60,984 nucleotides of DNA from Bacillota bacterium. GTDB taxonomy: Bacteria > Bacillota > Bacilli > Alicyclobacillales > SLC66. The notes below the pieces were generated by a model, which was given only the letters and a program-made list of their open reading frames with translations, searched no databases and was not told the DNA's origin. Positions 7,155 through 48,754 of the stretch are shown here, one piece after another. The translations under genes and the position numbers were made by a program. The number at the start of each line of letters is the position of its first letter. The first letter of the stretch is position 1. The DNA is taken from the NCBI GenBank assembly GCA_021793015.1, contig JAJYTO010000003.1, positions 1-60,984 of the forward strand, in the 5' to 3' direction.

Positions 7155-7193
7155 GGGACATGCGATAAAGTCCGCGGTTTATCACATGTCCCC
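7154..7193 (+). repeat. Family A repeat, internally deleted copy A1
   Basis: Only the outer arms of family A remain: GGGGACATGCGATAAA and TTTATCACATGTCCCC around an 8-base centre GTCCGCGG. CTA flanks the left side and TAG the right, so the element is bounded by CTAG on both sides. The full copies are 122 bp with two further stems inside. It overlaps the pbpB stop codon and could also act as a hairpin between the two penicillin-binding protein genes. Confidence 0.85.
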
Positions 7194-19378: not shown

Positions 19379-19499
19379 AGGACATGTGATAAAGTTCGCG
19401 CAGCAGGCGTTATGATCCCACATATAGTGTTTGAGGCTTTAATCAAACACTATATGTACCGCACCGCGCCTGCCAAATTTCGGTTTATCACATGTCCCC
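19378..19499 (+). repeat. Family A 122-bp nested palindrome, copy A2
   Basis: The outer arms are GAGGACATGTGATAAA and TTTATCACATGTCCCC. A middle pair GCAGGCG/CGCCTGC and an inner hairpin CATATAGTGTTTGA/TCAAACACTATATG with loop GGCTTTAA follow. The length is exactly 122 bp, as in copies A3, A4 and A5. CTA flanks it on the left and TAG on the right. It separates murA from divIB and overlaps the murA stop codon. Confidence 0.92.
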
Positions 19500-24824: not shown

Positions 24825-24956
24825 TGCAGGGGGCTGCGCCGGGAGCGTCGGACGTCCGCTTCAACGCGCGTAACTGGGCAGCGCGATGCATTCGTGGGCG
24901 GCAGCGGAGCGCCTGGTGTCACCTCCAACGAGAGCAGCCTACTGTTTTATGAGGTT

Positions 24957-25099
24957 GTTCAAAAAGGGGTCAGAACTCCCTGGCGCATTGCTGCGTCAGC
25001 GCCAAGAATGCTCCCTCACGTACCCAAAACGTACGCTCGGTCCGCATTCTTGGCTCGCTTCCTTGCACTGCGCGGGGCTTACCTGACCCCTTTTTGAAC
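24957..25099 (-). repeat. Family B nested palindrome, intact copy B1
   Basis: The outer arms are GTTCAAAAAGGGGTCAG and CTGACCCCTTTTTGAAC. Inside, GCCAAGAATGC and GCATTCTTGGC pair, and ACGTAC with GTACGT form the tip. The length is 143 bp. Copy B2 at 43335-43601 has the same sequence in the opposite orientation but carries a family A element inside. With the ftsZ hairpin and the spoIIG promoter it accounts for most of the ftsZ-spoIIGA gap. Confidence 0.88.
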
Positions 25100-25143
25100 A
25101 GGCACTTTTATGTCGATTCTTTTCTTGTTGACAGGGGCAAGTT

Positions 25144-42792: not shown

Positions 42793-42914
42793 GGGGACAT
42801 GTGATAAAGTCCGCAGAGCAGGCGCTATGATCCCACATATCGTGTTTGAGGCTTTAATCAAACACGATATGTACTGCAGTGCGCCTGCCGAAATTTGGTT
42901 TATCACATGTCCCC
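42793..42914 (+). repeat. Family A 122-bp nested palindrome, copy A3
   Basis: The arms GGGGACATGTGATAAA/TTTATCACATGTCCCC enclose GCAGGCG/CGCCTGC and the inner hairpin CATATCGTGTTTGA/TCAAACACGATATG with loop GGCTTTAA. Relative to A2 an A-T pair in the inner stem is C-G here, changed on both sides. It lies directly upstream of the GGDEF gene, covering where its promoter would be expected. Confidence 0.92.
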
Positions 42915-43334
42915 CGTTTGTGCTGCAGAACAGCTCTCACTGGAATGATCACCCGCATCCTGTCTCTTCACGCCCGTGATGGGAATCCTGGCGTTGCAAT
43001 TCCTTTATCGGAAATACATAGGATCTGAACCGGGTTTGCGGTTTTCTTCTATTGCATATTCGACACAAAGCGACAACCTCCTTGTGCGGCGAAAAGTAAT
43101 AGGTTTTAAATAGCGACTATTCGGGATATTTTGCGGACCGCTCGGAGATCACACCTTGCTCCGTGGTTCGACATGGACCGCCGTCTCCTTCACCGCCATG
43201 ACGCAAAACCATTCTTGATTGCTGTCGGGTTGATTGTGGTGGCCGACTTCGTGAAGCAGACACGGACTACGAAGTTTTTTTATCAACGAGATGGCGGCGA
43301 CCACTCGTTTCCTGTAGACTCACGGTAAGAGCCT
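42915..43334. other. Intergenic stretch without recognised gene
   Basis: About 420 bases between the A3 repeat and the B2 repeat. The composition is more AT-rich than the neighbours. It holds AATAGTCGCTATT-type symmetry near 43110 and one exact Spo0A-box heptamer TTCGACA at 43059, which is short enough to be chance. A plus-strand frame at 43131-43328 (65 codons) has no ribosome site or family resemblance, and I do not call it. Confidence 0.5.
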
Positions 43335-43601
43335 GTTCAAAAAGGGGTCAGGTAAGACCCGCGCAGTGCAAGGAAGCGAGCCAAGAATGCGGACCGAGCG
43401 TACGTTCCCGGTACGTGAGGGAGCATTCCAGGGGAGCAGTGATAAAGTCCTCGATGCAGGCGCAGTGATTCCAGATATAGCGTCCGAGGCTTTAGTCGGA
43501 CGCTATATGCACCGCTTCGCGCCTGCCCTACTTTGGGTTATCACTGCTCCCCTTGGCGCTGACGTGGCAATGCGCCGGGGAGTTCTGACCCCTTTTTGAA
43601 C
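43335..43601 (+). repeat. Family B nested palindrome interrupted by a family A element (copy B2)
   Basis: The outer arms GTTCAAAAAGGGGTCAG and CTGACCCCTTTTTGAAC match intact copy B1. The inner GCCAAGAATGC and ACGTAC elements are present up to GAGCATTC. There a 122-bp family A unit plus two bases (CA) interrupts the sequence, after which TTGGCGCTGAC resumes. Total 267 bp equals 143 + 122 + 2, so the insertion history is readable. Confidence 0.9.
43431..43552 (+). repeat. Family A 122-bp element, subfamily with GGGGAGCAGTGATAA arms, copy A4
   Basis: The arms GGGGAGCAGTGATAA and TTATCACTGCTCCCC enclose GCAGGCG/CGCCTGC and the inner hairpin ATATAGCGTCCGA/TCGGACGCTATAT with loop GGCTTTAG. It is inserted in family B copy B2. 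Almost the same sequence occurs inverted at 48633-48754. Confidence 0.92.
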
Positions 43602-43633
43602 AACCTCTGTAAGAAGCGCGAGGAGGTGGGGCG

Positions 43634-45424
43634 ATGGGCGTAACGGTGCGCGCGGCGATGAAGGTGGGCGGACTGCGGCGCTGCCGTGTGGTGGCGGGCG
43701 AAGCGGGACTTGATCGCTCCATTGAGTATGTCACCGTTATGGAAGTGCCGGATGTCGTGCGCTGGTTGAAGGGCAAGGATTTTTTGTTGACGAGCCTGTA
43801 TGCGATCAAGGATGACGCGGTGGCGCAGGAACAATTGATTGGACAGTTGGCCGCCGTCGGATCGGCCGCGATCGCGATCAAGACGCATCGTTTTTTGACG
43901 GAGGTTCCGGAAGGGATCCTGCGGGCTGCGCGCGAACTGGACTTCCCGGTGATTGAGATCGATGCGGACGTGTCGTACATAGACATCCTGACGCCGCTCA
44001 TGAGCCGTATCCTGGACGAGGGAAGCGCGGAACGGGAGAGTCTGGAGCCTTACCTCAAGTGGCTGACAGAGGTGGCGCTGGAGGGCCAGGGAGTGTCGGC
44101 GATGCTCGATGCAATCGATCGAATCGTCGAAAATCCGGTGACGCTTGAGACTGATTTGCCGCTTGAAGCGGGCCGCCCATCCGTGTTTCCGATTCCACTG
44201 TCGGTGGAACAGCGGGCGGCGCTTCGCAAGGCGAAGCATCCGTTGCGGATGACGCGCAGAAAACGCGAGGGCGGCGACACACCTTGTCTGGTGGCGCCGC
44301 TCGTGTTGCGGCGCGAGGTGCGGGGTTATTTGACGTGCTGGCAAGTGGGGCGGCCGCTGCGCGAGACGGATCTGAATGTGCTGGAGCGCGCGTTGCCGCT
44401 GCTTGCGCTTGAGGTCTTGAAGTTGCAGGCGGAGATTGACGTCGCGCAAAAGTACCAGAGCGACTTTCTTGCCGATATTCTGCTCGGTCACCCGGTGCCG
44501 ACAGGTGAATTGGCGGAGAAGTCGCGGATATTCGGGTGGAATTTTCATCGCACGTATCAGATCGCAGTCTTTGACGTGGATGATTTTGCTCGCGTGACGG
44601 CCGAATTCGCGGGCGACGAGGTGCGTATTCAAGAATTCAAGCGAACGCTGCTGCGCTTTGTGGAACGGGCGGCGCGGGCGACGCTTGCGGAGACGATCGT
44701 ATCTGCGCGCAGCGATGAGATCGTGCTGCTGTGGCCCCTGCAGGAAGCGGCGCCCTCCATGGGCATGGGCGCACAGGGTCATGCGCTGTCGGAGGCGTCG
44801 GCGGAAGTGGATTCCGACAATACGCCTGCTCGCGCAGATTTGTCTGCAGACGTGGATGCCGCTGCAGGCGGCGGGTTTGCAGCGTTGCCTGAGGAGGCGG
44901 AGGTGAGCGCGCTCGCCGAGCGGATCAATACGGCTGTTCGCCAGGAGTTCGCGGGTGTGACGCTGACCGCCGGGGTTGCGCGCCCTTATCGCGGCGTGGC
45001 GGGCATCGCGGCCGGTTACCAGGAAGCGGTGCGCGCGATCGCTCTTGGCCGTCCGGCGCGCGGCCGGGACGCGGTGATCCGCTTTGCCGATCTCGGCGTC
45101 TATCGCATCCTCAGTCCACGCGCCGACGAGCGCGAATGGGCTGCATTTTATGCGGAGACGATCGGACCGTTGCGCCGTTATGACAAGGAGCGGGGCGCAC
45201 GGCTGGTTGAGACGTTGGCGGCGTATTTTGCCTGCGACTACAACCTGACCGTTACGGCAGAAACACTCTACATCCATGTGAACACATTGAAATACAGGCT
45301 GCAACGGATTGAAGAGTTGACCGAGTGTCTGATCGGCAGCGCGGAGGGGCGGCTCAAGCTGCACATTGGCCTTAAGCTCGATGCTCTCTCAGTACACGTC
45401 GATGGTCTCTCGGCATTCTCCTGA
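43634..45424 (+). CDS. PucR family transcriptional regulator
   Basis: This 596-residue regulator has three parts: an N-terminal PucR domain (about 1-125; RRCRVVAGEAGLDRSIEYV, VMEVPDVVRWLKGKDFLLTS), a central CdaR/GGDEF-like region, and a C-terminal PucR-type HTH near 535-580 (LAAYFACDYNLTVTAETLYIHVNTLKYRLQRIEEL). PucR proteins respond to metabolites of purine or related nitrogen-source catabolism. A low-complexity insert lies at about 375-425 (MGMGAQGHALSEASAEVDSD). ATG follows GAGGAGG. It precedes the transporter, carbamoylase and second PyrK-PyrD genes on the same strand and probably controls them. Confidence 0.9.
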   Translation: MGVTVRAAMKVGGLRRCRVVAGEAGLDRSIEYVTVMEVPDVVRWLKGKDFLLTSLYAIKDDAVAQEQLIGQLAAVGSAAIAIKTHRFLTEVPEGILRAARELDFPVIEIDADVSYIDILTPLMSRILDEGSAERESLEPYLKWLTEVALEGQGVSAMLDAIDRIVENPVTLETDLPLEAGRPSVFPIPLSVEQRAALRKAKHPLRMTRRKREGGDTPCLVAPLVLRREVRGYLTCWQVGRPLRETDLNVLERALPLLALEVLKLQAEIDVAQKYQSDFLADILLGHPVPTGELAEKSRIFGWNFHRTYQIAVFDVDDFARVTAEFAGDEVRIQEFKRTLLRFVERAARATLAETIVSARSDEIVLLWPLQEAAPSMGMGAQGHALSEASAEVDSDNTPARADLSADVDAAAGGGFAALPEEAEVSALAERINTAVRQEFAGVTLTAGVARPYRGVAGIAAGYQEAVRAIALGRPARGRDAVIRFADLGVYRILSPRADEREWAAFYAETIGPLRRYDKERGARLVETLAAYFACDYNLTVTAETLYIHVNTLKYRLQRIEELTECLIGSAEGRLKLHIGLKLDALSVHVDGLSAFS

Positions 45425-45462
45425 AAATTATCCCTCGACAATGTTGACCTTTTCTGCCCTGT

Positions 45463-45648
45463 CCCGAAGAATATGATGGTCCCTGCCGGTCGGAGACATA
45501 TATTGCACCCCTGCTCAGACAGCGCTGTCGCTAAACTCGCGACGGGCGCAATATATGTCTCCTCCCCGAGCGGGCCTTGCATCCGTGCAAAATATGATGG
45601 TCTCTGCCTGTCAGGACGATGAGATTTTGCTTCGCAAAACTCAGGCAT
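45463..45648 (-). repeat. Family C palindromic repeat, copy C3
   Basis: The arms GGAGACATATATTGCACCC (45492-45510) and GGGCGCAATATATGTCTCC (45544-45562) pair with one G-T. The outer edges GCAGGGACC and GCTTCGCAAAACTCAG match those of the other copies in reverse. It occupies the gap between the PucR and transporter genes. The rest of that gap (to 45931) holds no gene I can support, only a TATAAT at 45879 without a good -35. Confidence 0.85.
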
Positions 45649-45931
45649 GCCGCTGCCGCTCAGACAGCCGCGGCCTAAAGGCCGCTAATACTTGCTGCAG
45701 CGCCATGGGCTGCCATTTGCTCCCGGCGAGTTCTTGTCCGGTCATCACAGTCAGGAAGAGAGACGCTTTCCTTCGCGTGGCGGCGTTTCTGGGCGAATCT
45801 GAGGCGTTTGTTAAATGGGACAAATTGAGTCGAATAATTATGGTGTTTATCGACAAGTGCAAGAGTGGGCGAAGCGGTTATAATGGTGAAGCGCAATTAT
45901 TTGAATAGTCTTTAGAATGGGGGGAGTTTTC

Positions 45932-48632: not shown

Positions 48633-48754
48633 GGGGAGCAGTGATAATCCAAATCAGGGCAGGCGCGAAGCGGTGCATCCAGCGTCCGACTAAAGCCCCG
48701 GACGCTGGATCTGGAGTCACTGCGCCTGCATCGAGGACTTTATCACTGCTCCCC
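48633..48754 (-). repeat. Family A 122-bp element, copy A5 (inverted relative to A4)
   Basis: In reverse it reads GGGGAGCAGTGATAAAG, GCAGGCG, the inner hairpin ATCCAGCGTCCG/CGGACGCTGGAT with loop GGCTTTAG, then CGCCTGC and TTATCACTGCTCCCC. Compared with A4, two base pairs of the inner stem are swapped with both sides changed. CTAG flanks the left edge. It separates the carbamoylase gene from the PyrK-like gene. Confidence 0.92.

Follow-up and report, generated by a model that had tools for sequence, protein, structure and literature searches.

A terminal-inverted-repeat MITE nested within another MITE and probably mobilised with it as a unit

IS630/Tc1-mariner enzymes duplicate TA upon insertion, and IS630 itself reportedly prefers the TA within CTAG, at least in what is related of the 1991 work of Tenzen and Ohtsubo. 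In an in vitro assay, ISY100, a member of the IS630 family, gave TA duplications in 34/39 cases and AA/TT duplications in 2/39, with the other 3 lopsided (PMC2170065). Target duplications have been described for 40% of the 90 copies of MITEAba12 (PMC6382973), and the TIMEs and TIME-COMPs, which are Tn3-derived MITEs, are associated with 5-bp A/T-rich direct repeats such as TATAA and TAATA (PMC13367494). REPINs, a further class of small repeat, depend on an associated RAYT gene (PMC3116915).

The stretch of DNA analysed here, referred to as the window, is 60,984 nucleotides long and constitutes contig C232 of a 3.82 Mb draft genome of 321 contigs, with positions 43335-43601 occupied by a 267-bp composite of a 143-bp palindromic repeat (family B) and 124 bp of a second repeat (family A). 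In our assessment A and B are very probably both terminal-inverted-repeat MITEs, with A having become nested once in B and the composite having then moved as a unit. We regard the pair as a new instance of ordinary nesting between transposons and not as a novel single-strand mode of transposition, and a conventional, testable mechanism replaces the single-strand one suggested earlier. A close parallel among bacterial MITEs is MITEAba12 (PMC6382973), of about 110-120 bp, which likewise has terminal inverted repeats, no gene, and duplications at a minority of copies (40% of 90, compared with 46% for A and 47% for B). The duplications of MITEAba12 are however 9 bp long, and IS elements sharing its ends are known as its partners, whereas the duplications of A and B have other lengths and no such partners were found for them. 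B also resembles the TIMEs and TIME-COMPs (PMC13367494) in its 5-bp A/T-rich repeats and in the movement of extra DNA with its ends, a likeness that lies in the duplications, the ends of B (GAGGTTGTTCAAAAAGGGG) not being shown to be of Tn3 type; furthermore, the cargo of B sits inside one MITE, and that of a TIME-COMP between two.

The intact B copy at 24957-25099 can be aligned over its full length with the interrupted copy at 43335-43601, which lies in the opposite orientation and differs by an internal block of 124 bp (267 minus 143). The junctions read GAGCATTC-CA-(122 bp)-TTGGCG in the filled copy and GAGCATTC-TTGGCG in intact B, and the first-pass annotation had described both the nesting and these junctions correctly. 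As a putative mobile unit the composite spans 43329..43607 on the + strand, running from GAGCCTGTTCAAAAAGGGG to CCCCTTTTTGAACAACCTC of B with A inside. Within the host B element, the left part (43329..43427, +) is 96% identical to positions 25006-25099 of intact B on the other strand, and the right part, which includes a terminal inverted repeat, occupies 43556..43607 (+). Adjoining A are CCAG (43428..43431, +), with CA at its centre, which we read as the diverged left copy of the target duplication of A, and CTTG (43552..43555, +), the right copy, identical to the single CTTG present in intact B; CNNG flanks are likewise seen at other A copies. A measures 122 bp when counted from GGGG to CCCC (43431..43552, +); should its duplication span 4 bp, the length would be 120 bp (43432-43551, +). 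It has perfect 16-nt inverted ends, with the left terminal inverted repeat (GGGGAGCAGTGATAA, 43431..43445, +), recurrent in many copies, and the right (TTATCACTGCTCCCC, 43538..43552, +) forming a perfect inverted pair, and an internal hairpin (ATATAGCGTCCGA/TCGGACGCTATAT, 43475..43508, +) that is absent from short A derivatives of 38-72 bp. The predicted folding of both repeats is far stronger than that of shuffled controls (A z -8.4, with 0/200 shuffles as good; B z -7.8), and an Rfam search of the window matched no known RNA.

Short direct repeats are evident around family B. Exact 5-bp A/T-rich repeats flank 16 of 34 B copies, composite or not, against 2.2 expected, with a maximum of 8 exact pairs obtained in 10,000 shuffles. 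The intact B element (24950..25105, -) lies between two copies of TTTTA (24945-24949 and 25106-25110), and four of the six complete composites of the home genome have exact duplications (TTAAA, TTATA, TTTTA, and CTTTA). The remaining two comprise the window copy, bordered by GGTAA on the left (43324..43328) and TGTAA on the right (43608..43612) with one mismatch between them, and one copy without a match. The features of a DDE-type MITE, terminal inverted repeats (GAGSYTGTTCAAAAAGGGG ends) and a duplication of constant 5-bp length, are thus both found in B. No B occurs in the plasmid collection searched, and both ends are missing from the viral contigs. Minimal B derivatives of about 50 bp, with little beyond the two ends, were observed at loci L130 2419, L087 2120, and L216.

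The composite is itself a dispersed repeat, with seven copies of 96-100% identity in the home genome (on C232, C137, C259, C175, C278, and C279, and truncated in C56) and further partial copies at contig ends, this number being a lower bound, as are all copy numbers of A, B, and the composite, because repeats break the assembly. Copies of A, B, or the composite lie at the broken ends of contigs C56, C198, C207, C218, C252, and C294 of the same genome (G000). One further composite is present on a 33,102-bp contig of a sister genome, G001, and this recurrence of the 267-bp form indicates that the nesting is not due to chance. In every composite A is preceded by CCAG and followed by CTTG, although the right junction of the G001 copy has gained or kept an additional base, and this common junction points to a single insertion of A followed by spread of the composite. 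In a diverged, old copy of 233 bp (C301:24304) the left junction is CCAG, as in the composites, and the right is TTTG. A tree of A copies places the A of the composites within one subgroup (support 92/79), the sequences being too short to resolve its origin.

Comparison of empty and filled sites in relatives, which the first-pass annotation had proposed as a check, showed the orthologous site of the window to be empty in both sister genomes, G001 and G002, with the target present once (CACGGTAAGAA). The sisters read ...GACTCACGGTAAGAAACGCC..., and the corresponding window sequence is ...CACGGTAA-GAGCC...CCTC-TGTAAGAAG. No composite was found in the home genome at the location of the G001 composite. 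Since the window site is empty in the sisters and is bordered by a duplication of ~5 bp, A and B would have arrived there together, without B awaiting A. The proposed order of events, with B present before A, is therefore upheld for the ancestor of the composite and fails at the window site itself. Nesting, duplications, empty sites, and movement as a unit are all borne out by comparison of the sequences themselves, on which the composite appears to have arisen once, elsewhere, and to have later moved as a unit, with the window copy evidently arriving as a finished composite after the split from the sister species. The empty sister sites in this way date its arrival at the window locus.

Turning to family A, alignment of 79 copies reveals flanks of the form C-NN-G, most commonly CTAG. 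Identical tetranucleotides flank 36 of the 79 copies against 23.6 expected, and non-palindromic direct pairs (CAAG/CAAG, CTGG/CTGG, and CCAG/CCAG) number 11 against 2.3 expected, with no excess of inverted pairs. Once six rows with a shifted register are excluded, 42 of 73 copies are concordant at the central dinucleotide (28.2 expected, p<5e-5), 30 of these being TA and 9 AA. Concordant dinucleotides other than TA number 12, against 2.9 expected, and the discordant pairs are mostly TA with TG or CA, equivalent to single transitions. For one A copy the filled site, CTGG...CTAG, can be set against an empty one, CTAG, in G001. These alignments indicate that A duplicates its target, which is centred on C-NN-G and is usually CTAG, over two central bases or more; lengths of 2 bp and 4 bp are indistinguishable here, as the outer C and G are almost invariant. 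The absence of an obvious target duplication, on which the single-strand suggestion had leaned, holds as a literal reading of the window copy, but across the family (73-79 copies) the flanks are repeated above chance, and even at the nested copy the step from an empty CTTG to a filled CCAG...CTTG constitutes an imperfect duplication. Transposition chemistry should accordingly not be read from one junction without family-wide comparison.

A has the terminal inverted repeats, lack of coding capacity, and many dispersed copies of a MITE, with exact matches to the ends of one subtype alone numbering about 46 in forward and 44 in reverse orientation across the genome, and its direct target duplication upon insertion is that of a DDE-type MITE. 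Further copies lie in the window. That at 42794..42913 (+) is found at the same place in G002, the site being empty in G001 (CTCG/CCCG compared with CACG), and that at 48634..48753 (-), with flanks of CCAG/CTAG in A orientation, belongs to the same subtype as the A of the composite, to which it is 93% identical. The copy at 19379..19498 (+) and a short derivative without the central part at 7155..7192 (+) are both flanked by CTAG/CTAG.

The length and target of A are fixed, without laboratory work, by an identical net gain of exactly 124 bp in three independent A-in-B nests, each at a CNNG (122+2 or 120+4). The window type, B1, measures 267 bp compared with 143 bp, with target CTTG and flanks CCAG/CTTG. 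In B2 (ends GAGGTTGTCCGAAAAGGGTCGAG) the filled form is 271 bp and the intact form 147 bp when both are measured alike, the target is CTCG, and the flanks are CTAG/CTCG; three complete copies lie in differing places (L095 2962-3230, L101 12841-13108, and L103 2652-2920, on C101, C130, and C137), and one is cut by the end of contig C161. The B3 nest is 280 bp in the home genome (L032/L120, C248:8250 region) compared with intact copies of 156 bp in G001 (L211, L212, and L217), which have CGAG where the nest has flanks CTAG/CAAG. The duplication of A is imperfect in all three, one flank being the CNNG of the host repeat, or one base off, and the other CTAG or CCAG. The simplest reading is later mutation, perhaps together with insertion into host copies that already had CTAG. 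It is very unlikely that the imperfection is mechanistic and not decay, with A having carried a few bases of its donor site in the style of coupling sequences; such insertion would be unusual for a MITE.

Inverted ends together with duplications of constant length suggest double-strand, DDE-type transposition for both families. Among known families, IS630/Tc1-mariner seems to best fit the target of A, which resembles the IS630/ISY100 pattern (PMC2170065) in the apparent duplication of TA, the preference for TA in CTAG (IS630), and the occasional AA/TT, although AA/TT targets are commoner in A (9/42 concordant) than in the ISY100 assay (2/39) and a C-terminal motif scan of the loci examined yielded no transposase of IS630 type between A ends. 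The sequence searched (about 1.1 Mb in the case of A, from an assembly that is incomplete and breaks at repeats) likewise contained no autonomous element ending in A or B termini, and we therefore infer both transposases and their classes. Additionally, no pairs of B ends 0.7-3 kb apart around a transposase were found in seven genomes. Searches with DDE_Tnp_1 and DUF772 for autonomous partners returned IS1182 and IS1634-like elements (only the latter named by eye), with ends that match neither A nor B.

Mobilisation of A by the resident IS1182-family transposases, in place of an IS630-type enzyme, is possible but doubtful. The genome holds two IS1182-family genes (NF033551, 468 and 456 bits, cut-off 270), all five observable ends of these elements abut CTAG, the preferred site of A, and two of the ends have CTAG in common with an A copy (L117 6904, and L018 about 93-111). 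The CTAG target is however all that is common to the two, as the IS1182 ends, GAGTCTGTCCGACG, are unlike those of A (GGGGACATGTGATAAA or GGGGAGCAGTGATAA), and the IS1182 flanks are solely palindromic CTAG, at which a target duplication of their own is not established. Single-strand transposition by an HUH/Y1 enzyme, in which A would either derive from IS200/IS605 or be a REPIN mobilised by a RAYT, was the mechanism suggested by the first-pass annotation, and we now consider it highly improbable. REPINs and RAYTs (PMC3116915; TnpA-REP, PMC8266576) do resemble A in that both are hairpin-forming inverted doublets and mostly extragenic; singlet A ends and short doublets exist, and there are thirteen Y1_Tnp genes in the genome, one with an A copy about 140 bp upstream. 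That copy nevertheless has its own CTAG/CTAG flanks, no A ends occur at the other 12 of the 13 loci, and the Y1 genes scanned (three sequence groups), which lack A or B ends of their own, are of IS200 type, with 119-153 bits to NF033573 and 22-36 bits to the REP-associated model, for which the cut-off is 80. Direct duplication of the flanks of A, non-palindromic pairs included, also differs from the IS200/IS605 pattern of a fixed motif 5' of the left end only and no target duplication. Furthermore, unlike a REPIN, A is a unit of about 122 bp with a variable middle and with target duplications, and no RAYT gene is flanked by A or linked to A or B.

The joint movement of A and B has a rival in the proposal that the composites all stem from a single duplicated segment, or that homologous recombination or gene conversion spread them, which we find barely credible. 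The composites and intact B copies do have polymorphisms in common (positions 20 and 79-82), which suggests some gene conversion or recurrent mutation. The outer flanks of the composites are however unrelated between copies and carry separate 5-bp duplications, and it is these duplications, together with the empty sister sites and their single target, that led us to reject an origin of the composites by segmental duplication or by recombination.

For the preferred reading, that of one MITE nested in another, the events may be outlined as follows. A would insert at C-NN-G, mostly at TA in CTAG and less often at AA/TT, duplicating at least the two central bases, and B would insert at, and duplicate, 5-bp A/T-rich sites. 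In a single ancestral event A would have entered a B copy at a CTTG within its inner stem, with the resulting duplication later diverging to CCAG/CTTG. As the terminal repeats of B remained intact, the transposase of B could have kept mobilising the enlarged unit, giving rise to one copy in a sister species and no fewer than seven in the home genome, all of the latter complete or almost so, with the window copy landing ready-made just upstream of a PucR-type gene after the sister species had split off. The pair would be a clean case of a MITE that absorbs another MITE and keeps moving.

At 43608-43634 the window composite is shortly followed by the start (43634) of this PucR-type regulator gene, whose expression may have changed as a result. 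Another dispersed repeat is present in the window at 45460-45650, and both G001 and G002 hold many copies of it. Yet another repeat family (...GCAAGTTGCCGTATAAAAA) lies in or beside the A-tract of B ends, producing three-level nests at L132 13851, L007, L008, L113, L116 2061, and L122.
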